Shown in pieces: positions 2,040-22,888 of a DNA stretch of 23,679 bases (its first letter is position 1; the number at the start of each line of letters is the position of its first letter). Made by a program: the position numbers and the translations under genes. Source of the stretch: a virus; IMG/VR virus record IMGVR_UViG_3300034105_001215, positions 1 through 23,679 of that record. The stretch is one strand, 5' to 3'. The notes below the pieces were generated by a model. That model saw nothing but the letters and a program-made list of their open reading frames with translations. It had not been told where the DNA came from and made no database searches.

Positions 2040-2189
2040 ATGAGCTACGGACAAATGATTGCCACAATACAATGCTACTTACATCACGTTAAGAATGTAG
2101 AAGTAATGATTAACCTACCAAGAAATATAGGCGAAATTAAAAAGATGCAAGAAATGTATTTAATAGCTTCTGCTTATTTGAATAGTTAA
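2040..2189 (+). CDS. Small hypothetical protein (49 aa)
   Basis: A frame from ATG 2040 to TAA 2187-2189 encodes 49 residues beginning MSYGQMIATIQCYLHH. It is moderately hydrophobic at both ends and has no clear motif. It is flanked by two TATATTTG boxes, one upstream (2006) and one downstream (2227), so it may be a separately expressed monocistron. I do not recognise the family. The coding call rests on promoter spacing, a preceding A-rich leader and an otherwise empty 258-base gap. Confidence 0.5.
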   Translation: MSYGQMIATIQCYLHHVKNVEVMINLPRNIGEIKKMQEMYLIASAYLNS

Positions 2190-2226
2190 ATATTTGTTAA
2201 ATGTATTTTATTTAAAAGATAAGTAT

Positions 2227-2234
2227 TATATTTG
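2227..2234 (+). promoter_or_regulatory. Bacteroidetes-type -7 box TATATTTG
   Basis: This consensus -7 box lies 22 bases before ATG 2257. A T-rich stretch at 2206-2209 sits at about the right distance for the -33 element, although it lacks the G. Confidence 0.5.
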
Positions 2235-2256
2235 TATATAATTAAAAACAAAAAAT

Positions 2257-2463
2257 ATGAAAACAATTAAAGTAGCAGTAAATTATTGTGGTATAGAATT
2301 TGAAGTTAAAGGGTTCTATATAAAAGGTGATGACTATGATTATACAGGTAGTTGTATTGAAGATGTAGAAATATTAATAGAAGGTGTTGATGTATATCAA
2401 ATACTATCTACAAAACAAATGAATGATATAATAGATTTAGCAATACACGAAATAGAAGATTAA
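2257..2463 (+). CDS. Small acidic hypothetical protein (68 aa)
   Basis: The 68-residue acidic protein starts with two beta-like strands (MKTIKVAVNYCGIEFEVKG). A Tyr/Gly turn (DYDYTGSC) and a strand of the type EDVEILIEGVDVYQIL follow, with an acidic helix at the end. From memory this arrangement recurs in small proteins of many phages in which a short strand-rich core precedes an acidic helix, but the role is unknown. The gene has its own promoter-like box and an efficient terminator 30 bases after its stop. It is therefore probably a single-gene unit, perhaps expressed at a different time from the tail operon. Confidence 0.65.
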   Translation: MKTIKVAVNYCGIEFEVKGFYIKGDDYDYTGSCIEDVEILIEGVDVYQILSTKQMNDIIDLAIHEIED

Positions 2464-7860: not shown

Positions 7861-9680
7861 TTACATTAAAAATAGAAAGCAATTTAGATAGTATTACTAA
7901 AGACGTTAAAAAATTAGGTAATTCTTTTGAAGATACTGCTGACGAAATAAAAGGCATACAACAATCAACTAAAAATGCTGAAGCAGGAGTTAAATCTTTA
8001 GCAGATGGATTTAAAGGAATGGGTTTAGCTATTAAAGCAATTGGTATTGGTTTAGTAATGGAAGCCTTTAATTTATTTAAAGAAGTATTAGGTAAGAATC
8101 AAAAAGTAGTAGACACATTTAATACTGTTATTGGTGCTTTGTCTATTGCATTTAATGATTTATTTGGTTTTGTAATGGATAATTTCCCTACAGTAATTAA
8201 AATTTTTAAAGATGTATTTGAAAACCCTACAAAATATTTACAAAAGTTTGGTGATTTAGTTAAAGAAAATTTAATTGAAAGATTTAATTCATTTTTAGAT
8301 ACAATAGGTTACGTTGGTGAATCAATTAAAAAAGTATTTGAAGGTGATTTTGCAGGCGCTATGGAATCTGTAAAGAAAGCTGGAAAAGAATCTTTAGATG
8401 TTTTAACAGGTGTTAATAATTCATTTGATAGAGGTAAAAAAATAGTTGGCGATGCTGCTGATGCAATTGGTAACTATGCAGTTAAAACTTATAATGCATC
8501 TGAAGCAAATATTAAACTACAAAATTCTGCCCTTATAGCTGCTGCTGAACAAGCTAAATTAGTTGAACAATATGATAGACAAGCAGAAAGTCAAAGGCAA
8601 ATTAGGGATAATGATTTATTATCTATTTCAGATAGAATAAAAGCTAATGATAAATTAAAAACTATATTAGAAAAACAAGAAGCGGCTATGCTTAAGGCAG
8701 CAAATTTACAAAAAGATGCTGCAGCAGCTACATATAATCTTAATAAAACAACAGAAAATAGAGTTGCGTTAATTAATGCTGAAGCAAATGTAGAAGGAGT
8801 ATTAGCACAAATTAAAGGTTTAAAAAGTGAACAACTTGCGAATGAAAATTCATTAACAAAAGAATCTAATGATTTATTACAAAGTCAAATAGATACAAAA
8901 AATGAATTAAATGTTAAATCAAAACAATTTGATTCAGAACAAGAATTAACTGAAATTAAAAAATTAGAAAAGCAAAGGGAAGTTATAACGTTACAACAAG
9001 AAATAGACAATGCTGAATTATTGCGTAAAAGAAAATTATATGCCGATGGAACACAAGCAAGAGTAGATGCTGAAAATGAGTTTTTAATTAAAAAACAAGA
9101 AACAGATAATGCTTTAGTTACTAATCAATCTGAAACTAATAAGAAATTAAAAGCAGATGCTGAAGCACTTAGAGATGCTAAATTAGCTATTAGAAATGCA
9201 GAATTAGATGCAGTTAGTGGCGGTATTAATATATTAAAAGGAGTATTTGAAAAAAATAAAGGGATACAAAAAGGATTATTAATAGCTGAAAATGCAGCAG
9301 GTATTGCTAAGATTATAATTAATACAATGGCTGCAAATGCAAAGGCATTATTATTAGGGCCTGTATTAGCACCGCCAACAATAACTGCAAACACTATTAG
9401 CGCAAGTATTGGTGTAGCTTCTTCAATTGCTGCAACTGCAAAAGGATTAGCTGCTTTAGGAGGTGGTTCTGCTGGTGGTTCAAGTTCAGTTAGTAGTGGA
9501 GGTATGGCTGCTCCTGCTGCTCCTAACTTCAATGTAGTAGGTGCAAGTTCAACAAATCAATTAGCACAAACAATTGGTTCACAACAACAACAACCTATAA
9601 AGGCTTATGTAGTAGCGAATGATGTGACAACTCAACAAGGCTTGGATAGAAATATAGTACAATCAGCAAGTATAGGATAA
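7845..9680 (+). CDS. Tail tape measure protein
   Basis: The 611-residue protein is mostly alpha-helical. It has long coiled-coil stretches (about residues 240-460), a hydrophobic N-terminal segment (GMGLAIKAIGIGLVMEAF, about 57-74) and a Gly/Ala/Ser-rich region near 515-560. The tail ends PIKAYVVANDVTTQQGLD, a C-terminal signature I associate with tape measures of Bacteroidetes phages. It sets tail length and is passed into the host envelope during DNA ejection. By the common ratio of about 1.5 angstrom per residue this would correspond to a fairly short siphovirus tail. That estimate assumes an all-helical protein. Confidence 0.85.
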   Translation: MENKVVTLKIESNLDSITKDVKKLGNSFEDTADEIKGIQQSTKNAEAGVKSLADGFKGMGLAIKAIGIGLVMEAFNLFKEVLGKNQKVVDTFNTVIGALSIAFNDLFGFVMDNFPTVIKIFKDVFENPTKYLQKFGDLVKENLIERFNSFLDTIGYVGESIKKVFEGDFAGAMESVKKAGKESLDVLTGVNNSFDRGKKIVGDAADAIGNYAVKTYNASEANIKLQNSALIAAAEQAKLVEQYDRQAESQRQIRDNDLLSISDRIKANDKLKTILEKQEAAMLKAANLQKDAAAATYNLNKTTENRVALINAEANVEGVLAQIKGLKSEQLANENSLTKESNDLLQSQIDTKNELNVKSKQFDSEQELTEIKKLEKQREVITLQQEIDNAELLRKRKLYADGTQARVDAENEFLIKKQETDNALVTNQSETNKKLKADAEALRDAKLAIRNAELDAVSGGINILKGVFEKNKGIQKGLLIAENAAGIAKIIINTMAANAKALLLGPVLAPPTITANTISASIGVASSIAATAKGLAALGGGSAGGSSSVSSGGMAAPAAPNFNVVGASSTNQLAQTIGSQQQQPIKAYVVANDVTTQQGLDRNIVQSASIG

Positions 9681-9747
9681 AAAGTGCACCACATATGATA
9701 TATAAAACAAATAAAAATTAAATTAATTATAATTAAAAAAATATAAG

Positions 9748-10338
9748 ATGCGAATAGTAGAATTAATAATAGATGAAAATGAAAAGTTAAGTGGAATAGA
9801 TGCAGTTTCAATTGTAGAATTCCCTGCAATAGAATCTAACTTTATTGCATTAAGCGAACATTTAGAACTTGCAAAAGTAGATGATGAAAAAAAGATTTTA
9901 ATGGGTGCTGCATTAATACCAAATAAAAACATTTACAGAAGAAATGGAAATGATGAATATTATATTTTCTTTTCAGAAGATACAGTACGCAAAGCAAGTG
10001 AATTATTTTTAATGAATAGCAATCAAAACAACGCTACATTAGAACACGAAAAGAAACTAAAGGATTTAACTGTAGTTGAATCTTGGATAGTTGAAGATAC
10101 TGAAATGGATAAATCTAAAAAGTATGACTTAAATGCACCCGTAGGTACTTGGATGGTATCTATGAAAGTAAACAATGAAGCTATATGGAATGACTTTGTG
10201 AAAACAGGAAAAGTTAAAGGCTTTAGCATCGAAGGATATTTTTCAGACAAATTAGAAATGAGTTTAGAATTTGCAAAAGAACAAGAACTATTAGATAAAA
10301 TAAAATCAATTATAAATAATGCTGAAATTAATAAATAA
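9748..10338 (+). CDS. Prohead protease, XkdF/S78-like
   Basis: The 196-residue protein matches the XkdF-like (peptidase S78_2) prohead protease layout. An N-terminal strand region leads to LMGAALIPNKNIYR (51-64). The candidate catalytic histidine is His100 in ATLEHEKKL. A conserved segment, VVESWIVEDTEMDKSKKY, leads to VGTWMVSMKV. The candidate nucleophile is Ser160 in GFSIEGYF. It would cleave scaffold and capsid precursors inside the procapsid. The position directly before the scaffold and capsid genes supports this. The third catalytic residue is not certain from sequence alone. A 67-base AT-rich gap precedes it. Confidence 0.8.
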   Translation: MRIVELIIDENEKLSGIDAVSIVEFPAIESNFIALSEHLELAKVDDEKKILMGAALIPNKNIYRRNGNDEYYIFFSEDTVRKASELFLMNSNQNNATLEHEKKLKDLTVVESWIVEDTEMDKSKKYDLNAPVGTWMVSMKVNNEAIWNDFVKTGKVKGFSIEGYFSDKLEMSLEFAKEQELLDKIKSIINNAEINK

Positions 10339-10578: not shown

Positions 10579-11127
10579 ATGAATGTGATTAACGAAATTA
10601 AAACGCTTTTGGGAATGGAGATAAAACTTGCCCAAATGAAACTTAAAGATGGTATTACAGTAATCGAAGCAGATGCTTTTGAACCTGAACAAGCTGTTTT
10701 TATAGTAAACGGTGAAGAACGTATTGCAATGCCAGTTGGTGAATACGAACTTGAAGATGGAATGATTTTAGTAGTAGCCGTTGAAGGTATTATTGCTGAA
10801 ATTAAAGAAGCTGCAATTGAAGAAGAATCACCTGAAGCAGAAGAAGAAGTTGAAGTTGAAGCACAAGCTGAAACAGTTGCAACTCCTAAAAGAATCGTTG
10901 AATCAGTTTCTAAAGAAATGTTCTTTGCTGAAATTGAAAAACTAAGAACTGAAATTGCTGAATTAAAATCAGTAAAAGAAGTTGTTAAAGAAGAATTAAG
11001 TTCAGAAGTTGTTGTTGAACCATTAACACACTCACCTGAAGTTAAAAACGAAGTTAAACTAAATAAAATATCAACTAATCGCCAAATGACTACACAAGAT
11101 ATAGTTATGGCAAAACTTTTTAATTAA
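10579..11127 (+). CDS. Probable capsid scaffold protein
   Basis: The 182-residue protein has a strand-rich N-terminal part (MKLKDGITVIEADAFE, then VNGEERIAMPVGEYE). A highly acidic Glu/Val/Ala linker follows at about 81-100 (EEESPEAEEEVEVEAQAE). A coiled-coil helix comes next at about 115-140. The C-terminus is basic (NRQMTTQDIVMAKLFN). Acidic, coiled-coil proteins immediately before the major capsid gene are usually scaffolds that guide shell assembly and are removed by the protease. The C-terminal basic end may contact the capsid protein. The gene is six bases from the capsid gene. Scaffold function is inferred from composition and position. Confidence 0.7.
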   Translation: MNVINEIKTLLGMEIKLAQMKLKDGITVIEADAFEPEQAVFIVNGEERIAMPVGEYELEDGMILVVAVEGIIAEIKEAAIEEESPEAEEEVEVEAQAETVATPKRIVESVSKEMFFAEIEKLRTEIAELKSVKEVVKEELSSEVVVEPLTHSPEVKNEVKLNKISTNRQMTTQDIVMAKLFN

Positions 11128-11133
11128 TAAACT

Positions 11134-12078
11134 ATGGCTACTACAACATCAATTACAACTACCTATGCTGGGGAGTTTGCAGGAAAATATATTTCTGCTG
11201 CATTATTATCAGGTTCTACAATCGCTAATGGCGGTATTGAAGTAAAACCAAACATTAAATACAAAGAAGTTATCAAAAGAATTGCTACTGACGGAATCGT
11301 TAAAAATGCAACTTGTGATTTTGATGCTACTTCTACTGTAACATTAACTGAAAGAGTAATTACTCCTGAGGAATTCCAAGTAAATTTACAACTTTGTAAG
11401 AAGGACTTCAAATCTGATTGGGAAGCGGTTCAAATGGGGTATTCTGCATTTGATAATTTACCTCCAAGTTTTGCTGATTTCTTATTAGCACACGTTGTTT
11501 CTAAAATTGCTGAAAAAACAGAACAAAACATTTGGAAAGGTGTTAATGCTACTGCAGGTGAATTTGACGGATTCTTAACTCTTGCTGCTGCTGATGCTGC
11601 TGTTCTTGATGTAGCTTCTCCTGCTTCGGGTGGTGTTACTGCTGCTAACGTAATTGCTGAACTTGGAAAAGTTGTTGATTTGATTCCTGCTTCACTTTAC
11701 GGAAAAGAAGATTTATATCTTTATGTTTCACAATCTGTAGCTCGTGATTATGTACGTGCTTTAGGTGGATTCGGAGCAAGTGGTTTAGGTTCAAATGGTA
11801 CTAACAATTTAGGTACACAATGGTTCAATAATGGTTCATTATCTTTTGATGGTGTTAAAATCTTTGTTTGTAACGGAATGACAAATGATTATATGATGGC
11901 TGCACAAAAATCTAACTTATATTTTGGAACTGGTTTATTATCTGACCAAAACGAAATCAAGGTAATTGATATGGCTGACATCGATGGTTCAGAAAATGTA
12001 AGAGTAGTAGCCCGTTTTACTGCTACTGTTCAATATGGTGTTGGTGCTGAAATCGTTCTTTACACACCTGCAGCATAA
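11134..12078 (+). CDS. Major capsid protein
   Basis: The 314-residue protein follows the protease and scaffold genes and precedes an efficient terminator, as expected for the most heavily expressed structural gene. It begins MATTTSITTTYAGEFAGKYI and has a mid-region of alternating helices and strands (EEFQVNLQLCKKDF). Gly/Ala-rich loops include ALGGFGASGLGSNG, and the C-terminus is strand-rich (VRVVARFTATVQYGVGAEIV). The codons are the least AT-skewed of the structural genes, and several alanine and glycine codons use GCT and GGT. HK97 fold is assumed because all tailed phages use it, although the sequence alone does not prove it. Confidence 0.8.
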   Translation: MATTTSITTTYAGEFAGKYISAALLSGSTIANGGIEVKPNIKYKEVIKRIATDGIVKNATCDFDATSTVTLTERVITPEEFQVNLQLCKKDFKSDWEAVQMGYSAFDNLPPSFADFLLAHVVSKIAEKTEQNIWKGVNATAGEFDGFLTLAAADAAVLDVASPASGGVTAANVIAELGKVVDLIPASLYGKEDLYLYVSQSVARDYVRALGGFGASGLGSNGTNNLGTQWFNNGSLSFDGVKIFVCNGMTNDYMMAAQKSNLYFGTGLLSDQNEIKVIDMADIDGSENVRVVARFTATVQYGVGAEIVLYTPAA

Positions 12079-12087
12079 TTATAAAAT

Positions 12088-12118
12088 AAAGGGTAGGTAA
12101 TATTATCTACCCTTTTTT
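12088..12118 (+). terminator. Terminator after the major capsid gene
   Basis: A nine-pair stem, AAAGGGTAG (12088-12096) with CTACCCTTT (12107-12115), is followed by T 12113-12118. It lies within the 64-base gap before the tube-like genes and probably sets the ratio of capsid to downstream transcripts. Confidence 0.85.
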
Positions 12119-12142
12119 ATTAACTTTAAAAATACATAGACT

Positions 12143-12694
12143 ATGCCTTGCGATATATCATTAGGACGTGCTGAACAATGTAAAAATTCAGTAGGAGGAT
12201 TAAAAGCAGCATACTTCATTAATTGGGGTGATGCTACAACGGTAACATATTCTGCAACTGCAGGACAAGAAGATGTTATAACTGCTTTAGGTGGTACACC
12301 AGTAGGTTATAAATATGAATTGAAGGGAACTTCAACTTTTGAACAAACTGTAACAAGTTCAAGAGAAAACGGTACTACATTTGTAGACCAAAAATTAAGT
12401 TTAAGTTTGAAAAAATTATCTATTGCTGACCACAAACAATTGAAATTACTTTCTTACGGAAGACCACAAGTTATCATTGAAGATAATAATGGAAGTTTCT
12501 TTATGGCAGGTTTAACTAAAGGTATGGATTTGGTAACTTCAACTATTTCAAGTGGTGCTGCAATGGGCGATATGAGTGGTTATAAAATTGAACTTCAAGG
12601 TATGGAACCTTTAGCAGCAAATTTCATAGTACCAACTGCTGGTACATTAGTTAGTGCAGTTTTAGCTTCTATCGTTGAAGGTACTGTAGCATAA
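12143..12694 (+). CDS. Tail-tube-like protein, paralogue A (183 aa)
   Basis: This 183-residue strand-rich protein begins MPCDISLGRAEQCKNSVGG and contains YKYELKGTSTFEQTV, the motif SSRENGTTF, LKKLSIADHKQLKLLSYGRP, EDNNGSFFMAGL and AAMGDMSGYKIELQGME. These are features I associate with a tail tube or tail-tube-like structural protein in Bacteroidetes phages. A strand-rich fold and its location after the capsid gene are consistent with that. It is clearly paralogous to the next gene. Tube versus head decoration cannot be settled from sequence alone. Confidence 0.6.
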   Translation: MPCDISLGRAEQCKNSVGGLKAAYFINWGDATTVTYSATAGQEDVITALGGTPVGYKYELKGTSTFEQTVTSSRENGTTFVDQKLSLSLKKLSIADHKQLKLLSYGRPQVIIEDNNGSFFMAGLTKGMDLVTSTISSGAAMGDMSGYKIELQGMEPLAANFIVPTAGTLVSAVLASIVEGTVA

Positions 12695-12717
12695 TATTAA
12701 TTTTAAAAAAGTAGACT

Positions 12718-13257
12718 ATGCCTTGTGATATAACCTTGGGAAGAGCGGAACAATGTAAGAATGTTATTGGTGGAATAAAAGCTGTTTATCTTTTTAATTA
12801 TCTTAGTAATGAAGTTATAACTGTTGATAGCAATGATGTAATACAAAATGTGGCAAATGCTACTGAAGCATCAGTATATAAATACGAGTTAAAAGGAGCT
12901 TCAACTTTTGAACAAACAATTACCTCATCAAGAGAAAATGGTTCGTCTTTTGTAGAACAGAAATTAACTTTACATTTAAAGAAATTATCTGTTGCTGACC
13001 ACAAACAACTTAAAATTTTAAGTTATGGTAGACCAAGAATATTTATAGAAGATAACAACGGTAACATATTTTTAGCTGGAAAAGAAAAAGGTATGGAATT
13101 AACTACTTCTACAATTTCTACAGGTGCATCAATGAGTGATATGTCAGGTTATAAATTAGAGTTTTTAGGAACTGAATATATTTCTGCTAATTTTATTCTT
13201 AATAACGATTTAGATTCTATTGGATTAGAATTTATTGTTGTAGGTACTGTAGCATAA
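12718..13257 (+). CDS. Tail-tube-like protein, paralogue B (179 aa)
   Basis: The protein repeats the pattern of its upstream neighbour: MPCDITLGRAEQCKN, YKYELKGASTFEQTI, SSRENGSSF, LKKLSVADHKQLKILSYGRP, EDNNGNIFLAGK, MSDMSGYKLEF. The block GRAEQCKN and the core from YKYELKG to MSGYK are strongly conserved, while residues 28-50 and the C-terminus diverge. The leader (TTAAAAA and GTAGACTATGCC) is also duplicated. This implies a tandem gene duplication. The second copy may be a minor tube or cap subunit. Two adjacent AUG starts with nearly the same context suggest similar translation levels. Confidence 0.6.
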   Translation: MPCDITLGRAEQCKNVIGGIKAVYLFNYLSNEVITVDSNDVIQNVANATEASVYKYELKGASTFEQTITSSRENGSSFVEQKLTLHLKKLSVADHKQLKILSYGRPRIFIEDNNGNIFLAGKEKGMELTTSTISTGASMSDMSGYKLEFLGTEYISANFILNNDLDSIGLEFIVVGTVA

Positions 13258-13280
13258 TATTATTATTTGTTTTTTTTATA

Positions 13281-13317
13281 AAAAGGTGTACTTTAATTAG
13301 TATGCCTTTTTTGTTTT
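13281..13317 (+). terminator. Terminator after the tube-like genes
   Basis: An 11-pair imperfect stem, AAAAGGTGTAC (13281-13291) with GTATGCCTTTT (13300-13310), contains two G-T wobbles. T-rich sequence follows (TTGTTTT). Confidence 0.75.
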
Positions 13318-13353
13318 AAAACAATTCTTATTTATATTTATTATAATTAAAAA
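13316..13353 (+). repeat. 38-bp direct repeat, copy 1
   Basis: It begins TTAAAACAATTC and ends TATAATTAAAAA. It is identical over 38 bases to 14209-14246, and the two copies enclose the four-gene reverse cassette. The A-tract at its right end doubles as the T-tract of the minus-strand terminator. Confidence 0.9.
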
Positions 13354-13378
13354 AGGGTAACTTAATTGATACCCTTTT
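13345..13378 (-). terminator. Terminator of the minus-strand cassette
   Basis: The stem is AAAAGGGTA (13351-13359) with TACCCTTTT (13370-13378). Read on the minus strand it is followed by a run of six T (13354-13349). The stem overlaps the last codons of the 64-aa gene. The plus strand also has T after it, so it may work in both directions. Confidence 0.75.
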
Positions 13379-13556
13379 CTTTTTGTAATTCTTCTAATAT
13401 TAAACGAATGTTAGTTATTTCAAGTTTAAGATTAGATATAATATTATCAGCAGCTTTTATTTTACCTTCTGCACTATATTTATATCTATCTAATGATTTA
13501 TTTTCTATTTTTAAATCTACTATTTCTTCTATTAAATATTTTACTACTTCTTTCAT
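13362..13556 (-). CDS. Cassette gene 4: coiled-coil protein (64 aa)
   Basis: This minus-strand gene encodes 64 residues, mostly one long heptad-like helix (YLIEEIVDLKIENKSLDRYK, then DNIISNLKLEITNIRLILEE), with Lys/Glu-rich polar faces. It starts one base after the stop of the 85-aa gene (TAA T ATG), so it is probably coupled to it. Its last codons lie in the terminator stem. No enzymatic residues or membrane segment are visible. A role as a dimeric adapter or binding protein is possible but is only inference. Confidence 0.6.
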   Translation of the reverse strand: MKEVVKYLIEEIVDLKIENKSLDRYKYSAEGKIKAADNIISNLKLEITNIRLILEELQKEKGIN

Positions 13557-13557
13557 A

Positions 13558-13815
13558 TTACTCTTTTATTGCTGTTATTAATTTATATAAAAATCTATAA
13601 TTTGTTTGTGAGTAAATATATTGAATAAAAGTTATTTTATAATCAATATATTCATTATTATTTTGAATAGTTATTATTTCATTTGTTTTATGATTTATTT
13701 GTTTATCACAAAAATATTCGTGTTCTAAATTACCTTTTTTAATTAAAACATATTTTGTTCTTGTTTTTAAACTTAAATCTATATTATCTAATCTTGTTTC
13801 TATTAATTTACTCAT
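13558..13815 (-). CDS. Cassette gene 3: hypothetical protein (85 aa)
   Basis: The 85-residue basic protein opens MSKLIETRLDNIDLSLKTR. Strand and loop sequence follows (KYVLIKKGNLEHEYFCDKQI), ending in an aromatic helix (TFIQYIYSQTNYRFLYKLI). It has one His and one Cys but no clear motif. The minus-strand leader AAATTAATGTAATG before its start is repeated at the start of cassette gene 2. I do not recognise the family. It lies in the same operon as the two coiled-coil proteins. Confidence 0.55.
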   Translation of the reverse strand: MSKLIETRLDNIDLSLKTRTKYVLIKKGNLEHEYFCDKQINHKTNEIITIQNNNEYIDYKITFIQYIYSQTNYRFLYKLITAIKE

Positions 13816-13842
13816 TACATTAATTTCTTAAAATTATAATAT

Positions 13843-14001
13843 TCATTGATTTACTAAAATTTCACACCAATAATTTAAAAGTGTGTTGTTTTCTTTTTTT
13901 AATTTATTATTTTCTTCTTTTAATTTTAAAATTTCTGAATATAATTTATTATTTATTTCTAAAAAATGCTCCATTTTTTTTTTATATTGTCCCTCGTTCA
14001 T
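13843..14001 (-). CDS. Cassette gene 2: coiled-coil protein (52 aa)
   Basis: The frame runs from ATG (14001-13999) to TGA (13845-13843). It encodes 52 residues: a short basic start, a Lys/Glu/Asn-rich helix (KLKEENNKLKKENNTLL, residues 27-43), then NYWCEILVNQ. The heptad spacing of Leu and Ile suggests a coiled coil of about 30 residues. A run of ten T on the plus strand (13974-13983) makes the Lys7-Lys9 region sensitive to indels. If that run is a sequencing slip, the internal Met10 could be the start. Stop and start of the upstream gene overlap by one base (TAATG). Confidence 0.55.
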   Translation of the reverse strand: MNEGQYKKKMEHFLEINNKLYSEILKLKEENNKLKKENNTLLNYWCEILVNQ

Positions 14002-14132
14002 TACATTAATTTATTTAAGTTAAACACAAATTGACTACCATCTTCAAATCTAAACAAACCAAAGTTTTTATTTGTTTGTATTAAAGTTACTATTGTATTA
14101 TTCCAAAACCTATACTTTGTTCCTATTTCCAT
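14001..14132 (-). CDS. Cassette gene 1: small beta protein (43 aa)
   Basis: This is the first gene of the minus-strand operon, 43 residues from ATG at 14132 to TAA at 14001. The sequence alternates strands and turns (GTKYRFWNNTIVTLIQTNK, then FGLFRFEDGSQFVFNLNKL). This resembles a small barrel of the SH3 type, but similarity to a named family is not established. A minus-strand promoter-like box lies 24 bases before the start. It is coupled to the next gene by a TAATG overlap. Confidence 0.55.
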   Translation of the reverse strand: MEIGTKYRFWNNTIVTLIQTNKNFGLFRFEDGSQFVFNLNKLM

Positions 14133-14156
14133 TTTTTTTGTTTTAAATTGTTTTGA

Positions 14157-14164
14157 CAAATATA
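14157..14164 (-). promoter_or_regulatory. Minus-strand -7 box for the cassette operon
   Basis: The plus-strand bases CAAATATA read TATATTTG on the minus strand, the Bacteroidetes -7 consensus, 24 bases before the first cassette gene. A TTG lies upstream at 15-base spacing, closer than the usual 19 or so. Confidence 0.55.
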
Positions 14165-14208
14165 TAAAACTTTATAATACAAAATCTACTTTAACAAATA
14201 TTTAACTA

Positions 14209-14246
14209 TTAAAACAATTCTTATTTATATTTATTATAATTAAAAA
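14209..14246 (+). repeat. 38-bp direct repeat, copy 2
   Basis: This is the exact second copy of 13316-13353. It ends six bases before ATG 14253. Recombination between copies would remove the cassette and leave one copy as the leader of the 137-aa gene. Confidence 0.9.
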
Positions 14247-14252
14247 TATTAT

Positions 14253-14666
14253 ATGATAATTTTAAAAGAGCAAATAGAATCACAAACTATAAAATTCATA
14301 CCGAGATTTTACTCGGCAGATACTCTTATTTTAAGAAACGAAACAACTAATATTTCAGTTACATTAAATCCTACATTTGTAGTTGATGGATATTATTTAA
14401 AATGTGATTTAGCTTTAGATTTAAAAGAAAATACTTTTTATAATTTAACTATTTTAAGTACTGCTTTGCCTTTTACTGCTGACAATGGAATTAAAACAGC
14501 TGATAATAATATATTAACTGCAGATATGACACAATTTAGTAGTGAGAATTCTTTAATTTATAGAGATAAAATCTTTTGTACAAATCAAAACAAGAATAAC
14601 TATACTGTTAATGAGAATCAATACGTAGCAAACGTTACAACAAACGAATTTAAAATATATGAGTAA
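14253..14666 (+). CDS. Pre-portal hypothetical structural protein (137 aa)
   Basis: The 137-residue beta-rich protein has FIPRFYSADTLILRNE near the N-terminus, then FYNLTILSTALPF, and a C-terminal part with LIYRDKIFCTNQN and NYTVNENQY. From memory, proteins with a terminal RDKIFCT segment are found just before the portal gene in Bacteroidetes phages. Its stop overlaps the portal start by 8 bases, so it is probably coupled. Function unknown. Head-associated or fibre-attachment roles are possible. Confidence 0.6.
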   Translation: MIILKEQIESQTIKFIPRFYSADTLILRNETTNISVTLNPTFVVDGYYLKCDLALDLKENTFYNLTILSTALPFTADNGIKTADNNILTADMTQFSSENSLIYRDKIFCTNQNKNNYTVNENQYVANVTTNEFKIYE

Positions 14667-16443
14667 TATATCAATTGTAAATTTAAGTGCTTACACAAGC
14701 CCTACAATACAAGAAAACAAGAAGAATAACTATATTGAATATGGTGCTGATAATAATTACTTTCAATATTTAATTGACAGATATTTATATAGTTCTACAA
14801 ATGGTGCTATTATTACAGGTGTTTCTAATATGATTTATGGTAAAGGATTAGATGCTTTAGATTCTAATAAAAAGCCAAATGAATATGCACAAATGAAATC
14901 TATTATAAAAGATTCTGATTTAAAGAAAATAGCTTTAGAAAGAAAACTTTTAGGAATGGCTGCTATGCAGGTTGTAATGGAAAAGAAACAAGTTAAACAA
15001 GTGCTTCATTTCCCTATGCATACATTAAGAGCAGAAAAATGTAATGATAAAGGACAAATTGAAAATTGGTATTATCACCCTGATTGGACTAAAAAGAAAC
15101 CAAGTGAAGAATTAAAACGCATTCCTGCTTTTGGTTTTGGTAACGGTAATGAAGTTGAAGTTTATATTTTACACCCTTACGTTAGTGGATTTGATTATTA
15201 TAGTCCAATAGATTATAGTGGTTCTTTGCCTTATGCTTTGCTTGAAGAAAACATTGCAGATTATCAAATCAATGATTGTCAAAACGGATTCAGTGGAACC
15301 AAAGTTATCAATTTCAACAACGGTATTCCTACTGAAGAAATGCGTGATAAAATGAAACGTGATGTACTTGGGAAACTAACAGGTGCACGAGGTGAAAAAG
15401 TTATTATTGCTTTTAATGCAAATGCTGAAAGTAAAACTACAGTTGAAGATTTACCTTTAAATGATGCACCCGCACATTACGAATATCTATCAAAAGAATG
15501 TTTTGAAAAATTAATTGTAGGTCATAGAGTTACTTCACCAATGTTATTAGGAATTCGTGAAACAGGTGGTGGCTTAGGTAACAATGCAGACGAAATAAAG
15601 ACTGCTACGCTATTATTTGATAACATAGTAATAAAACCATATCAATTAGAAATAACTGATGCCTTAGATGAAATTTTAGCTATTAATAATATATCATTAA
15701 AGTTATATTTTAAAACTATACAGCCTTTAGAATTTGTTGATGTATCAGGAATGAACGCAGAAACAACAGAAGAAGAAACTGGTGTTAAAATGTCTAAAGT
15801 TTGTTGTTCAACTGATAAAGATTTCACAGATGAAGAAGGTAATCAAATTCTTGAATTGTTAGAAGGAGAATCAATTAATGATGAATGGGAATTAGTAGAT
15901 AAACGTGAATATTCAGATTCAAACATATCTATTGAAGAATGGGCAAATTCTAAAATTAAAAATAAAGAAAATTTATTTGAAAAATTAGCAGGAGTTATTA
16001 AATCAAATCCAAATGCTAAAAGTTCTTTAGATAAAGGAAATTATAAAGTTCGTTATGAATATGCTGAAAAATATTCAAGTGGAAACTCAAGAGATTTTTG
16101 TAAACAAATGATGTCAAGAACTGCAAATGGAGTTGTATATAGAAAAGAAGATATAGACCAAGCAAGTTTTTCAGGAGTTAATATGGAATTTGGACATAAA
16201 GGTCAGAATTATTCACTTTTCAAATATAAAGGCGGAGTTAATTGTGGTCACGTTTTTAATGAAAATCTTTATAGATTAAAAACTAAAACAGATGGAACTC
16301 CATATGTAGATAAATCTTTATCTTCAAGTGAAGAAGTTAATTCTATTTCAGGTTATAATCCAAATCCTTCAGGATGGAAAGAAGCACAAATAGCACCAAT
16401 AGATATGCCTAATAGAGGACATCACCCAAATTATAAAGGATAA
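14659..16443 (+). CDS. Portal protein with extra C-terminal domain
   Basis: The first ~360 residues look like a portal: an N-terminal segment (KNNYIEYGADNNYFQYLIDR), hydrophobic stem-like helices, a HRVTSPMLLGIRETGGGLGN loop (289-308), and an EITDALDEILA helix. The portal ring is the gate for DNA packaging and the head-tail joint. Residues ~380-594 form a separate domain. It contains RDFCKQMMSRTANGVVYRKE (478-497), EDIDQASF, GHKGQNYSLFKYKGG and NCGHVF (Cys529, His531). The FC...GG.NCGH pattern resembles the C-terminal Cys/His part of Mu gpF-like minor head proteins. At 594 residues it is longer than usual, consistent with a fusion. The portal call is strong and the MuF resemblance tentative. 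Confidence 0.8.
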   Translation: MSNISIVNLSAYTSPTIQENKKNNYIEYGADNNYFQYLIDRYLYSSTNGAIITGVSNMIYGKGLDALDSNKKPNEYAQMKSIIKDSDLKKIALERKLLGMAAMQVVMEKKQVKQVLHFPMHTLRAEKCNDKGQIENWYYHPDWTKKKPSEELKRIPAFGFGNGNEVEVYILHPYVSGFDYYSPIDYSGSLPYALLEENIADYQINDCQNGFSGTKVINFNNGIPTEEMRDKMKRDVLGKLTGARGEKVIIAFNANAESKTTVEDLPLNDAPAHYEYLSKECFEKLIVGHRVTSPMLLGIRETGGGLGNNADEIKTATLLFDNIVIKPYQLEITDALDEILAINNISLKLYFKTIQPLEFVDVSGMNAETTEEETGVKMSKVCCSTDKDFTDEEGNQILELLEGESINDEWELVDKREYSDSNISIEEWANSKIKNKENLFEKLAGVIKSNPNAKSSLDKGNYKVRYEYAEKYSSGNSRDFCKQMMSRTANGVVYRKEDIDQASFSGVNMEFGHKGQNYSLFKYKGGVNCGHVFNENLYRLKTKTDGTPYVDKSLSSSEEVNSISGYNPNPSGWKEAQIAPIDMPNRGHHPNYKG

Positions 16444-16446
16444 AAA

Positions 16447-16947
16447 ATGGCACAAGGATTATTTATTTCAACAAACGATATAGTTAAATTCACTGTTTTA
16501 AATGGTAATTTAGACCCTGATATTTATACACAGTATATCTTTCAAGCACAGCAATTGCACATTCAGAATTATTTAGGAACTAAGCTATATAATAAGATTA
16601 ATGATGGTATTGTAGCAGGTAATTTAGCAGCACCATATACAACGCTTTTAAGCGTATATATTAAACCAATGGTAATACATTGGGCTATGGTAGAGTTTTT
16701 ACCTTATGCAGCTTATAAAGTATCTTCAAAAGGAGTATTTAAACATAATTCTGAAAACAGTACAACAGTTGAAAAAAATGAAATAGATTTCTTAATTGAA
16801 AAAGAACGTGATGTTGCACAAAGTTATACAAATAGATTCATTGATTATATGACTTTTAATCAATCTTCATTCCCTGAATATAATAGTAATTCAAATGCTG
16901 ATGTATATCCAGATAAAGATGCAAATTTTACAGGATGGGTGCTATAA
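16447..16947 (+). CDS. Head-tail adaptor-like protein (166 aa)
   Basis: The 166-residue helical protein has LFISTNDIVKFTVLNGNLD at the start, then FQAQQLHIQNYLGTKLY. Next come a hydrophobic helix with YIKPMVIHWAMVEFLPYAAYK and a C-terminal segment ESFIDYMTFNQ-like that reads RFIDYMTFNQSSFPEYNSN. From memory the set (IHWAMVE...ERDVA..Y..RFIDYM) matches a small family of head-tail connector proteins in Bacteroidetes phages. A gene three bases downstream of the portal is the usual site for a connector. It probably joins the portal ring to the tail. Confidence 0.65.
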   Translation: MAQGLFISTNDIVKFTVLNGNLDPDIYTQYIFQAQQLHIQNYLGTKLYNKINDGIVAGNLAAPYTTLLSVYIKPMVIHWAMVEFLPYAAYKVSSKGVFKHNSENSTTVEKNEIDFLIEKERDVAQSYTNRFIDYMTFNQSSFPEYNSNSNADVYPDKDANFTGWVL

Positions 16948-17036
16948 AAGAAACATATAAACCGAAAGAAGTAAACGTTAAGAAATTAGAAATTTTTTTA
17001 AATAAATTAGATAAAAGAAATGATACAAGTAATTAA
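16935..17036 (+). CDS. Small basic protein (33 aa)
   Basis: A short frame from ATG 16935 to TAA 17034-17036 overlaps the adaptor gene by 13 bases and the fibre gene by 17. The 33-residue product begins MGAIKETYKPKEVNVKKLE and ends KLDKRNDTSN. It is Lys-rich with a helical centre. The overlap at both ends fits the coupled style of this genome. However, the length is close to chance and no family is recognised, so it stays a moderate call. Confidence 0.45.
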   Translation: MGAIKETYKPKEVNVKKLEIFLNKLDKRNDTSN

Positions 17037-17642: not shown

Positions 17643-17891
17643 ATGGCAAATAATATAGGTTGGGGACAAGGTGCTGTAAATAACGTTATTGGTTGGGGAC
17701 AAGGTGCTATTAATAATATAATTGGGTGGGGTTCTATTTATATTTTAAGCTGGTCAGGTGAAACAGATATAGTAGGTTCGCCTGTTCCAACTATAATAAT
17801 TAATTTTAAGACAAGAGTTTTAGCTGATTTGGGTATATTTGAAGCAGAATCTTGTTTAAATACAACACTAACAAATTTAAATAATATATAA
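17643..17891 (+). CDS. NNxIGWGQGA repeat protein with tail-docking-like motif (82 aa)
   Basis: The first 30 residues are three imperfect copies of an 11-residue unit (NNIGWGQGA, NNVIGWGQGA, NNIIGWG). After SIYILSWSGETDIVGSPV comes a segment NFKTRVLADLGIFEAESCLN (54-73). Its 26-residue core (54-79) shares 14 residues with the N-terminus of the 709-aa tail-tip protein. The protein could be a linker that docks fibre components onto the tail tip. From memory, GWGQG-type N-termini are seen next to spikes in other Bacteroidetes phages. Its stop overlaps the spike start by one base. Docking is inference. Confidence 0.6.
   Translation: MANNIGWGQGAVNNVIGWGQGAINNIIGWGSIYILSWSGETDIVGSPVPTIIINFKTRVLADLGIFEAESCLNTTLTNLNNI
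17658..17734 (+). repeat. 33-bp tandem coding repeat (GWGQGA units)
   Basis: An 18-base unit GGTTGGGGACAAGGTGCT is exact at 17658-17675 and 17691-17708, a 33-base period. A diverged third unit follows near 17727. It encodes the NNxIGWGQGA repeats. Confidence 0.8.
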
Positions 17892-20753: not shown

Positions 20754-20789
20754 TAAAAAAAGTTTACTAAATTTTTATAAGTTGTAAAC
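20754..20789 (-). terminator. Terminator of the minus-strand regulator gene
   Basis: The stem is GTTTAC (20762-20767) with GTAAAC (20784-20789). On the minus strand it is followed by T complementary to the A run 20755-20761. The stem lies at the 3' end of the gene, with its left side just beyond the stop codon. The T-rich sequence on the plus side might also slow transcripts coming from the spanin gene. Confidence 0.55.
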
Positions 20790-21185
20790 CTTTTTGATTT
20801 GTTTGCTAATTGCCATTTTACTTAAGTCTAATAATTTTGCTAATTCCATTGATTTAATATTAGGATTTATTTCAAATATAGCTTTTATTTTATCTTTAGT
20901 TTTTAAATCTTTATTTTTACAAATATTCTTAATTTGAATATCTTTTAATAATTCATTTAACATACTATCTAAATATGTATCTTTTTTTGTAAATTCTTTT
21001 TTATACTTATTTACCCAATAATATATATAAGATAATAATTCTTTATAATCTTTAAAACATTTAATAGAATGTAATTCAAAATCATTACCACGATTAGAAT
21101 ACCAAATAAAATCATAACCATCATATATAATTTTATGATTTTCTATATCTTTTAAATAACTTAATTCTTTTAATGTAAATGGCAT
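20775..21185 (-). CDS. HTH-containing putative regulator (136 aa)
   Basis: This is the only sizeable minus-strand gene outside the cassette. The 136-residue protein is basic and its last ~40 residues form a helix-turn-helix of the winged or resolvase type (KDKIKAIFEINPNI, then SMELAKLLDLSKMAISKQIK, residues 98-131). The N-terminal part is aromatic (HKIIYDGYDFIWYSNRG) and may form a small domain. It is divergent from the ninG-replication genes, which suggests control of early transcription. The name of the family is unknown to me. The GC is extremely low (8 G+C in 60 bases at 20881-20940). Confidence 0.6.
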   Translation of the reverse strand: MPFTLKELSYLKDIENHKIIYDGYDFIWYSNRGNDFELHSIKCFKDYKELLSYIYYWVNKYKKEFTKKDTYLDSMLNELLKDIQIKNICKNKDLKTKDKIKAIFEINPNIKSMELAKLLDLSKMAISKQIKKVYNL

Positions 21186-21217: not shown

Positions 21218-21288
21218 ATCTTTTAATATAACTTAAATAAATAAACTTATAAACAGTATTGTTAATAACATATAATTACATTTATATA

Positions 21289-21690
21289 ATGAAAAAGCCA
21301 AGTAGAAAATCATTAGTTGAAAAATTAGATAAAATCTTCAGTATTTATATTAGAAGAAGATATGCTATAAATGATATAGCAGAATGTTATACTTGTAATG
21401 CTAAAAACATTTATAAAAAGCAACAGGCAGGTCATTTTGCATCAAGAAGGCATTATTCAACAAGATGGAATGAATTTAACGTGCAAGTTCAATGCTATTC
21501 TTGCAACATTTGTAATCAGGGTTTACAATTCGAATTTGGTAAAAGATTATGTTTACAATATGGTGATAACTTTGCTGAAGATTTAATGATAGAATCTAAA
21601 AAAGTTGTTAAATTTGCAGACGTAGATTTGATAGATATGATAGAATACTATACTAATAAAATACTGGCTTTAGAAAGTAAAGAAAACTAA
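21289..21690 (+). CDS. ninG: NinG/Rap-type recombination protein
   Basis: The start at 21289 (MKKPSRKSLVEKL) is preferred, because the 10 additional upstream residues are AT-rich leader. The 133-residue basic protein has the zinc-knuckle and HNH-like arrangement of the NinG (lambda Rap) family: CYTC (33-36), GHFASRRHYSTRW (48-60), NVQVQCYSCNICNQG (64-78) and a C-terminal helix. NinG modulates branched-DNA recombination intermediates. It is one of a set of recombination genes here (ERF, SSB). The minus-strand HTH gene lies divergently upstream. Confidence 0.8.
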   Translation: MKKPSRKSLVEKLDKIFSIYIRRRYAINDIAECYTCNAKNIYKKQQAGHFASRRHYSTRWNEFNVQVQCYSCNICNQGLQFEFGKRLCLQYGDNFAEDLMIESKKVVKFADVDLIDMIEYYTNKILALESKEN

Positions 21691-21853: not shown

Positions 21854-21910
21854 ATTTGTTAAAGTTGTGTTAAAATATTTTAATATAGTTTTATATTCAA
21901 AAAACAGTTA

Positions 21911-21918
21911 TATATTTG
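21911..21918 (+). promoter_or_regulatory. Promoter of the recombination/replication genes
   Basis: The -7 box TATATTTG lies 31 bases before ATG 21949, with a TTTT stretch at 21889-21892 about 19 bases upstream in the -33 position. It follows a terminator, as expected for a new transcription unit. Confidence 0.65.
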
Positions 21919-21948
21919 CATAACAATAACAATTAAAAACAAAACATT

Positions 21949-22345: not shown

Positions 22346-22888
22346 ATGGAATTAACATTAAATCAAAAACTGTCTTTAATTCAAAAAGAATTTAAAGCTA
22401 ACAAATCAAAATTTAATAGTTTTGGTAAATATAATTTTAGAAGTGCAGAAGATATTTTAGAAGCATTAAAACCATACAATGAAAAATACCAAGTAAACTT
22501 TACAATAACAGAATCAATAGTGGAATCACAATTTTTACAATTTCCAATGTTACGCTCAGTCGCTGCAATAAGCGATGATTTAGACACATTAACTGCTTCA
22601 GCTATAGTTGGTGTAGACTTAGAACAAAAAGGAATGCAAATGCCACAAAAGTTTGGTTCTGCAAGTTCATACGCTAAGAAATATGCATTGGGTAACTTAT
22701 TACTTATTGATGATACACAAGATTCTGATGCAACTAATAAAGGTGAAAAAGATGATAAAAAATGGTTAAACTTAAATACACCTGAATTTAAAAAAGCAGT
22801 TGAATACGTTAAAGGTGGTGGTTCTGTTTCTGCAATAGAATCTAAATATAAAATGACTAAGGAAGTTAAAGACGAATTAAGTGAATAA
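22346..22888 (+). CDS. ERF-family single-strand annealing protein
   Basis: The 180-residue protein matches the ERF family. It has LIQKEFKANKSKFNSFGKYN with NFRSAEDILEALKP at residues 12-42. A strand-rich middle leads to QKFGSASSYAKKYALGNLLL (about 101-120) and LIDDTQDSDA. ERF proteins anneal complementary single strands and promote circularisation or recombination-dependent replication of the phage genome. The C-terminal part (KAVEYVKGGGSVSAIESKYK) is an accessory region that probably binds SSB or other partners. It lies directly upstream of the SSB-like gene. Confidence 0.9.
   Translation: MELTLNQKLSLIQKEFKANKSKFNSFGKYNFRSAEDILEALKPYNEKYQVNFTITESIVESQFLQFPMLRSVAAISDDLDTLTASAIVGVDLEQKGMQMPQKFGSASSYAKKYALGNLLLIDDTQDSDATNKGEKDDKKWLNLNTPEFKKAVEYVKGGGSVSAIESKYKMTKEVKDELSE

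Follow-up and report, generated by a model that had tools for sequence, protein, structure and literature searches.

A moron-type cargo slot upstream of a phage portal operon, with a duplicated leader in one phage and cargo common to several slots

The window, which denotes the whole stretch of DNA analyzed here, is an entire IMG/VR virus record of 23,679 bases, and the genome it represents is probably incomplete. Between two tandem tube-type genes and a 137-aa gene that precedes the portal protein gene, two exact copies of a 38 bp repeat (R) were found on the forward strand (Table 1). The repeat is maximal, with the flanking bases of the two copies differing on either side; no third copy exists in the window when up to three mismatches are allowed, and the chance expectation obtained from dinucleotide shuffles was 0. 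A looser R-like copy (79%) at 9702–9739 stands ahead of another structural gene, indicating that AT-rich leaders of this sort recur. The 855 bp between the two copies have a G+C content of 17.9%, compared with 27.8% for the window, and contain four small ORFs, all on the reverse strand (m43, m52, m85 and m64). A previous sequence-only reading of the window had reported the repeats, the four ORFs, the low G+C content, a promoter-like box and a terminator of their own, all of which were recovered, the last two as a putative -7-type box and a predicted hairpin.

Table 1. Features of the cargo slot and its flanks in the window
Feature	Position	Strand	Remarks
Two tandem related genes, tube-type	12143–13257	+	phrog_19091 (no assigned function; the label tube-type is adopted from the sequence-only reading); upstream of the slot
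Putative tube-type gene terminator	13280–13311	+	Identical in empty relatives
Left R copy	13316–13353	+	Corresponds to the sole copy (137-aa gene leader) in empty relatives
Predicted reverse-operon terminator	13349–13380	-	Hairpin after the 64-aa gene; -12.6 kcal/mol, z -3.4
m64, 64 aa	13362–13556	-	Charged; by eye, a probable coiled coil; related genes in slots A and B
m85, 85 aa	13558–13815	-	Without relatives in the search
m52, 52 aa	13843–14001	-	Resembles a coiled coil; L093 has a related gene at this place
m43, 43 aa	14001–14132	-	Modeled as a small SH3-like barrel; related genes in slots A, B and C and at an early-type position
Promoter region (putative)	14126–14217	-	Common to window 2174–2263 and 21873–21944 and to cassettes of relatives
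-7-type promoter box TATATTTG (putative)	14157–14164	-	Matches TAnnTTTG; would serve the reverse operon
Right R copy	14209–14246	+	Leader immediately 5′ of the 137-aa gene
137-aa gene	14253–14666	+	Downstream of the slot; precedes the portal gene
Portal protein gene	14659–16443	+	phrog_33693, E 1.8e-83; P12024S portal 34%

The two tandem tube-type genes share 72–74% DNA identity with each other; two such genes were also found in seven relatives (L024, L025, L029, L030, L044, L055 and L070; L numbers denote the compared loci), and one in most relatives. An ERF annealase, which the previous reading had also named, is encoded at 22346–22888 (PF04404, E 6.6e-27), and a NinG/Rap-like recombination endonuclease lies near it at 21286–21690 (phrog_5034, E 7e-22). 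Neither an integrase nor a lysogeny module was found among the window proteins scanned from this probably incomplete genome. A nucleotide search of the phage collection with window 11000–17000 gave zero matches, and the portal as a single-protein query found no relative among genome contigs. The portal is 34% identical to the portals of the cultured Nonlabens phages P12024S/L, and a portal-alignment search found relatives in two contigs binned as Flavobacteriaceae (L191 and L192), whose gaps between the tube-type and 137-aa genes, read by eye, are without an inserted gene set. Based on these two portal similarities, the host of the window virus is likely to be found among marine or freshwater flavobacteria.

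For m64, m85 and m43, none of Pfam, PHROGs and PADLOC yielded a family match that could be used, and low-level family matches of m52 were set aside as being of the coiled-coil type. No relative of m85 was found in viral contigs, and m43 was unmatched in the phage collection, as was the head protein described below. When six proteins were searched with PADLOC, the only match was a weak one, given by a helical head protein. The structure model of m43 (pLDDT 89) shows a four-strand SH3-like fold; Foldseek comparison with the PDB gave nothing at an E value of 0.001 or better, the best being 0.1 to Tudor/SH3-like structures, and therefore this predicted small barrel is called “SH3-like” and no more.

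The box upstream of the reverse ORFs fits TAnnTTTG, which PMC9723704 gives as the -7 consensus of flavobacterial sigma-A. A sigma-70 scan found 16 promoter-like sites in comparison with 12.0 in shuffles (sd 3.4), which is no clear excess, and thus the promoter call rests on the flavobacterial -7 box. A TTTTG is spaced 15 nt upstream of the box by hand count, which is no clear fit to the -33 element, and no -33 element is claimed. The reverse cargo would accordingly run from its own host-type, sigma-A-like promoter; judging from the promoter type and the variability of the genes, it is probably expressed early in infection and may act early on the host or on competing phages. The promoter region at 2174–2263 and 21873–21944 of the window stands before small forward genes.

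To place the cassette among its relatives, the interval from the tube-type gene to the 137-aa gene was treated as one slot (slot B). The portal query found 166 IMG/VR relatives, of which the best 80 were retained, and in total 164 sequences were scored, comprising these 80, a further 80 fetched by head-protein alignment, L086, L093, L094 and the window. While 71 of the 164 were unscorable, being fragments or having ends missed by the scoring rules (among them L071, empty, and L099 and P12024S, both occupied, by other inspection), 72 of the 93 scorable gaps were empty (92–103 bp) and 21 were occupied (403–1207 bp). After removal of identical copies, 78 unique sites were obtained, 63 empty and 15 occupied. 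The head-protein-fetched set is biased towards occupied sites; for the portal-fetched loci alone (best 80 of 166), six of 65 scorable sites were occupied. A typical empty gap of about 100 bp holds a terminator followed by an R-type leader.

Occupancy is scattered over the tree of portal N-termini, which was built from the 61 of 78 unique loci with a usable portal start. It requires 11 changes, compared with a mean of 12.0 for shuffled labels (129 of 500 shuffles were as low), and at least four changes are forced by strongly supported branches; recombination near the portal could inflate this count. The contents also differ: in L017 the slot B cargo is one predicted lipoprotein (9212–9484, reverse strand; signal and Cys by eye). 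Lipoproteins of this kind are known elsewhere for superinfection exclusion. Slot B is thus a cargo slot that in relatives is either empty or holds varied small gene sets, and the cassette is by no means conserved in all of them. In L052 (9024–9965) and L053 (3782–4723), the relative of the 137-aa gene encodes 313 aa because of an additional domain at the C-terminus, which may be FISUMP-like.

The promoter box recurs with the cargo. A reverse ORF was listed for 13 unique occupied sites. In 12 of them a TAnnTTTG box stands 60–92 bp from the start codon (ATG) of the 137-aa gene, and 11 of these 12 boxes are TATATTTG. The exception is L132, where the head gene is followed by 97 bp only, and its 77-aa reverse ORF is therefore read as antisense to the head gene.

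Exact copies of R were found in eight IMG/VR stretches, one copy in each, six with an empty slot (L004, L024, L025, L028, L054 and L086) and two with an occupied slot (L021 and L022). When the window flanks were joined at R, the product agreed with both L024 and L025 at 142 of 142 bases and with L086 and L054 at 139 of 142. This indicates that the window differs here from L024 and L025 by one insertion, namely the cassette plus one R, and R itself reads as the leader that natively precedes the 137-aa gene. The sequence-only reading had proposed that the removal of the cassette with one repeat restores a simple gene order and had suggested checking whether close relatives without the cassette keep exactly one copy, and these sites show both; no relative with both repeats and no cassette was seen.

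Its further proposal, that the cassette entered or can leave by recombination between the repeats, stands only in part. The exact empty form and the single R agree with it, but in empty relatives R serves as the usual leader in front of the 137-aa gene, which partly matches an outcome that the reading itself had named as refuting, and a repeat kept at other insertions, as a repeat-excised mobile cassette would have, was not found: all 14 other unique occupied sites have a single leader. At these sites the two ends shared exact matches of 8–12 nt at most, and local alignment of the leader with the left part scored 10.5–16.0, within the shuffle range, compared with 38 for the window. Occupied-site leaders track the backbone and not the cargo, as those of L069 and L109, which are identical to leaders of empty relatives at 48 of 48 bases. 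Thus, the duplicated R is peculiar to the window phage and resembles a scar rather than a mobility signal, most likely left by the recombination event through which the cassette arrived. The 25-mer across the left junction had no match elsewhere in IMG/VR, so this junction rests on one assembly.

The usual module of relatives is fuller than the window cassette and has the order terminator, leader, forward head gene, terminator region, reverse genes, promoter and leader. Head genes encode 93–144 aa (one is broken at 40 aa) with the motif MSELK..LFKTEL.S.KVEL, and the head protein of L095 was modeled as a long two-helix hairpin (pLDDT 88). The full module of L021 and L022 holds relatives of m64 and m43 (88% and 95%), and that of L093 holds m64, an m52-like gene and m43. 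The window slot has no head gene: its left R sits at the position of the head-gene leader, and at the left end of the cassette a terminator and leader of the empty type run directly into the terminator region of m64.

Modules built in this way were also found in two other gaps, slot A between the genes at 10319 and 10579 (L030, L069, L091, L092 and L178) and slot C between those at 9748 and 10319 (L187 and L188). Relatives of m43 occur at 16 loci, in slots A, B and C, at an early-type position beside the terminase in L189, and in L182. In the latter, a 64 kb contig, the m43 relative (74%) lies among small same-strand genes; none of the window's other genes was matched there and no anchor genes were found. 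Slot B of L032 and slot A of L069 share a 584 bp stretch at 96% identity; it covers a head-gene body and an 81-aa reverse gene, although the two head genes differ in their starts. The 63 distinct head proteins were distributed as 46 in slot A, 15 in slot B and two in slot C, and clustering of their C-terminal parts at 50% identity gave 14 multi-member groups and 22 singletons, with five of the 14 groups spanning more than one slot. Sequence comparison thus suggests that head-gene bodies and cargo move between slot B and at least two other slots.

A wider model can be put forward tentatively, with somewhat less than even confidence: at least three fixed late-operon positions would each be able to hold a forward head gene with a largely slot-specific short N-terminus, while the helical C-terminus and the reverse early-type genes would be exchanged between slots and phages via the conserved head and the shared promoter and leader ends, and the window would carry a module minus its head, re-joined at the leader. 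No description of such between-slot exchange was found in the open-access literature searched.

For the window itself, the account that we consider fairly probable is an exchangeable moron-type slot between the tube-type terminator and the leader of the 137-aa/portal operon, with reverse cargo under its own promoter and a repeat left by one illegitimate crossover. Cargo would be inserted between that terminator and that leader, and would be transcribed from the sigma-A-like promoter, probably early, to its own terminator; with both signals supplied by the cargo, the late forward operon would retain its order and leader. A single illegitimate crossover within an A-rich stretch of about 10 bases would have joined the leader of an L024-like empty site to an L021-like terminator region behind the head gene. 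As the donor would have brought its own leader at the far end, one crossover alone would yield the 38 bp direct repeat, which, once formed, could permit precise loss, for example via the ERF annealase.

The mapping of the window by blastn is consistent with this crossover. Window 9463–13353 matches L024 (91%) and 13344–13557, with the first gene of the cassette, matches L021 (92%), the latter alignment beginning at 13344 and the junction overlapping the reverse-operon terminator; the 10 bases of overlap (13344–13353) are identical to L021 at nine. A-rich microhomology is expected by chance in AT-rich DNA and is no proof of a crossover. Farther right, window 14001–15792 is 97% identical to L021, and beyond the slot L024/L025 match the window about as closely as L021 does (96–97%), so that a right-hand crossover cannot be placed. 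L021 is without the 85- and 52-aa genes, and the actual donor must therefore be an unsampled phage that carried both.

Two other accounts of the repeat are each rather unlikely. In one, R is a working mobility site, and the cassette with one R enters or leaves as a circle or fragment by homologous recombination at the leader, mediated by ERF. The sequence of L024 and L025, which is precisely the predicted empty site, and the ERF annealase of the window agree with it, but the single leaders at the 14 other occupied sites, the different left beginnings of the relatives' modules (terminator, leader, head gene) and a left junction found nowhere else speak against it. In the other, which we rate no higher, the occupied state is older and L024/L025-like empty phages are precise deletions between the repeats. 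The predicted product is exactly the form of these two phages; however, empty sites with diverged orthologous leaders make up 63 of the 78 unique sites and are spread through the portal tree. In the family as a whole, the empty state is therefore probably the earlier one, whereas locally the order of events could have been either.

An HNH-type endonuclease cut followed by a break repair that inserted the cassette and duplicated the leader is less probable again. Reverse-strand endonuclease-like genes with a WHLDHIKP motif (by eye) do lie in slot A of L052 (6232–6732), L067 (293–1051) and L083 (5688–6413), of which L052 alone has a family match naming a function (phrog_1035, endonuclease VII, E 1e-20), and these are possible homing drivers; but none was found among the listed slot B occupied sites or in the window cassette, and the cut site is not known. 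Least probable is an assembly chimera of coexisting empty and occupied phages, which would explain why the double repeat is confined to one metagenome record, since the left-junction overlap of about 10 bases is too short for usual assembly k-mers and the cassette differs from L021 in gene content. Two classes of mobile element were also rejected, a transposon or insertion sequence because the four ORFs gave no transposase match and the longest inverted match between the 100-nt ends was 7 nt, and a site-specific att reading by the family searches of the cassette ORFs and the comparison of the ends.

Returning to the favored reading of a moron-type slot, the cassette resembles morons in the lambdoid sense in that extra genes lie between genes adjacent in relatives, in its putative promoter box and terminator hairpin, in the deviating base composition and in its variable cargo. 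Unlike morons, no lysogeny module was seen among the scanned window genes and no sign of prophage expression was present, and the unit lies on the reverse strand, generally goes together with a forward head gene and is common to several slots per genome. Promoter–terminator (PeSL) cassettes of T4-like phages were reportedly described by Arbiol in 2010 and Comeau in 2014. These are cited in PMC4503421 and PMC3950731, and the likeness is that small modules, marked by hairpins and by an early-type promoter that recurs, are shuffled between places and phages. Here, too, the promoter sequence borders variable genes at several places (2174–2263, 21873–21944 and slots A and B of relatives); our case differs in having no composite promoter and stem-loop motif, with promoter and terminator about 800 bp apart at opposite cargo ends, in occurring in P12024S-related flavobacterial phages, and in exchange also through a conserved coding head. 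The P2/P4 variable hotspots of anti-phage genes (PMC9122126) likewise combine a fixed genome position and conserved neighbors with changing accessory genes; here, a defence role is at most possible, with one weak PADLOC match among the six proteins searched.

The closest cultured counterpart is Nonlabens phage P12024S (JQ823122), in which P12024S_04, a lone reverse 76-aa gene with a TATATTTG box, occupies the corresponding gap, with the tube-type gene on one side and the gene preceding the portal on the other, and another reverse gene follows the portal gene. It differs in its portal (34–35% identical), its cargo protein, the lack of an annotated head gene and of any 38 bp repeat seen. The empty relatives, the scattered occupancy and this gene together give good support to the moron-type cargo unit of the sequence-only reading. 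The locus is thus a moron-type slot, ordinary in size but well defined; the window phage bears an unusual scar in it, and exchange extends more widely between slots. What appeared as an isolated oddity becomes a defined locus with exact empty, occupied and truncated forms, a recognizable promoter and cargo moving between slots. Such slots are good places to seek small phage proteins that act on flavobacterial hosts, and tests are feasible since the cultured P12024S carries the slot.

Two further observations were made in the window. An in-frame 33 bp tandem repeat at 17654–17719 encodes IGWGQGA.NN within a small gene. A second reverse-strand gene of 136 aa and very low G+C lies at 20775–21185 and possibly marks another cargo slot; it has its own putative TATATTTG-type box (21217) and a weak helix-turn-helix signal that stays below threshold.
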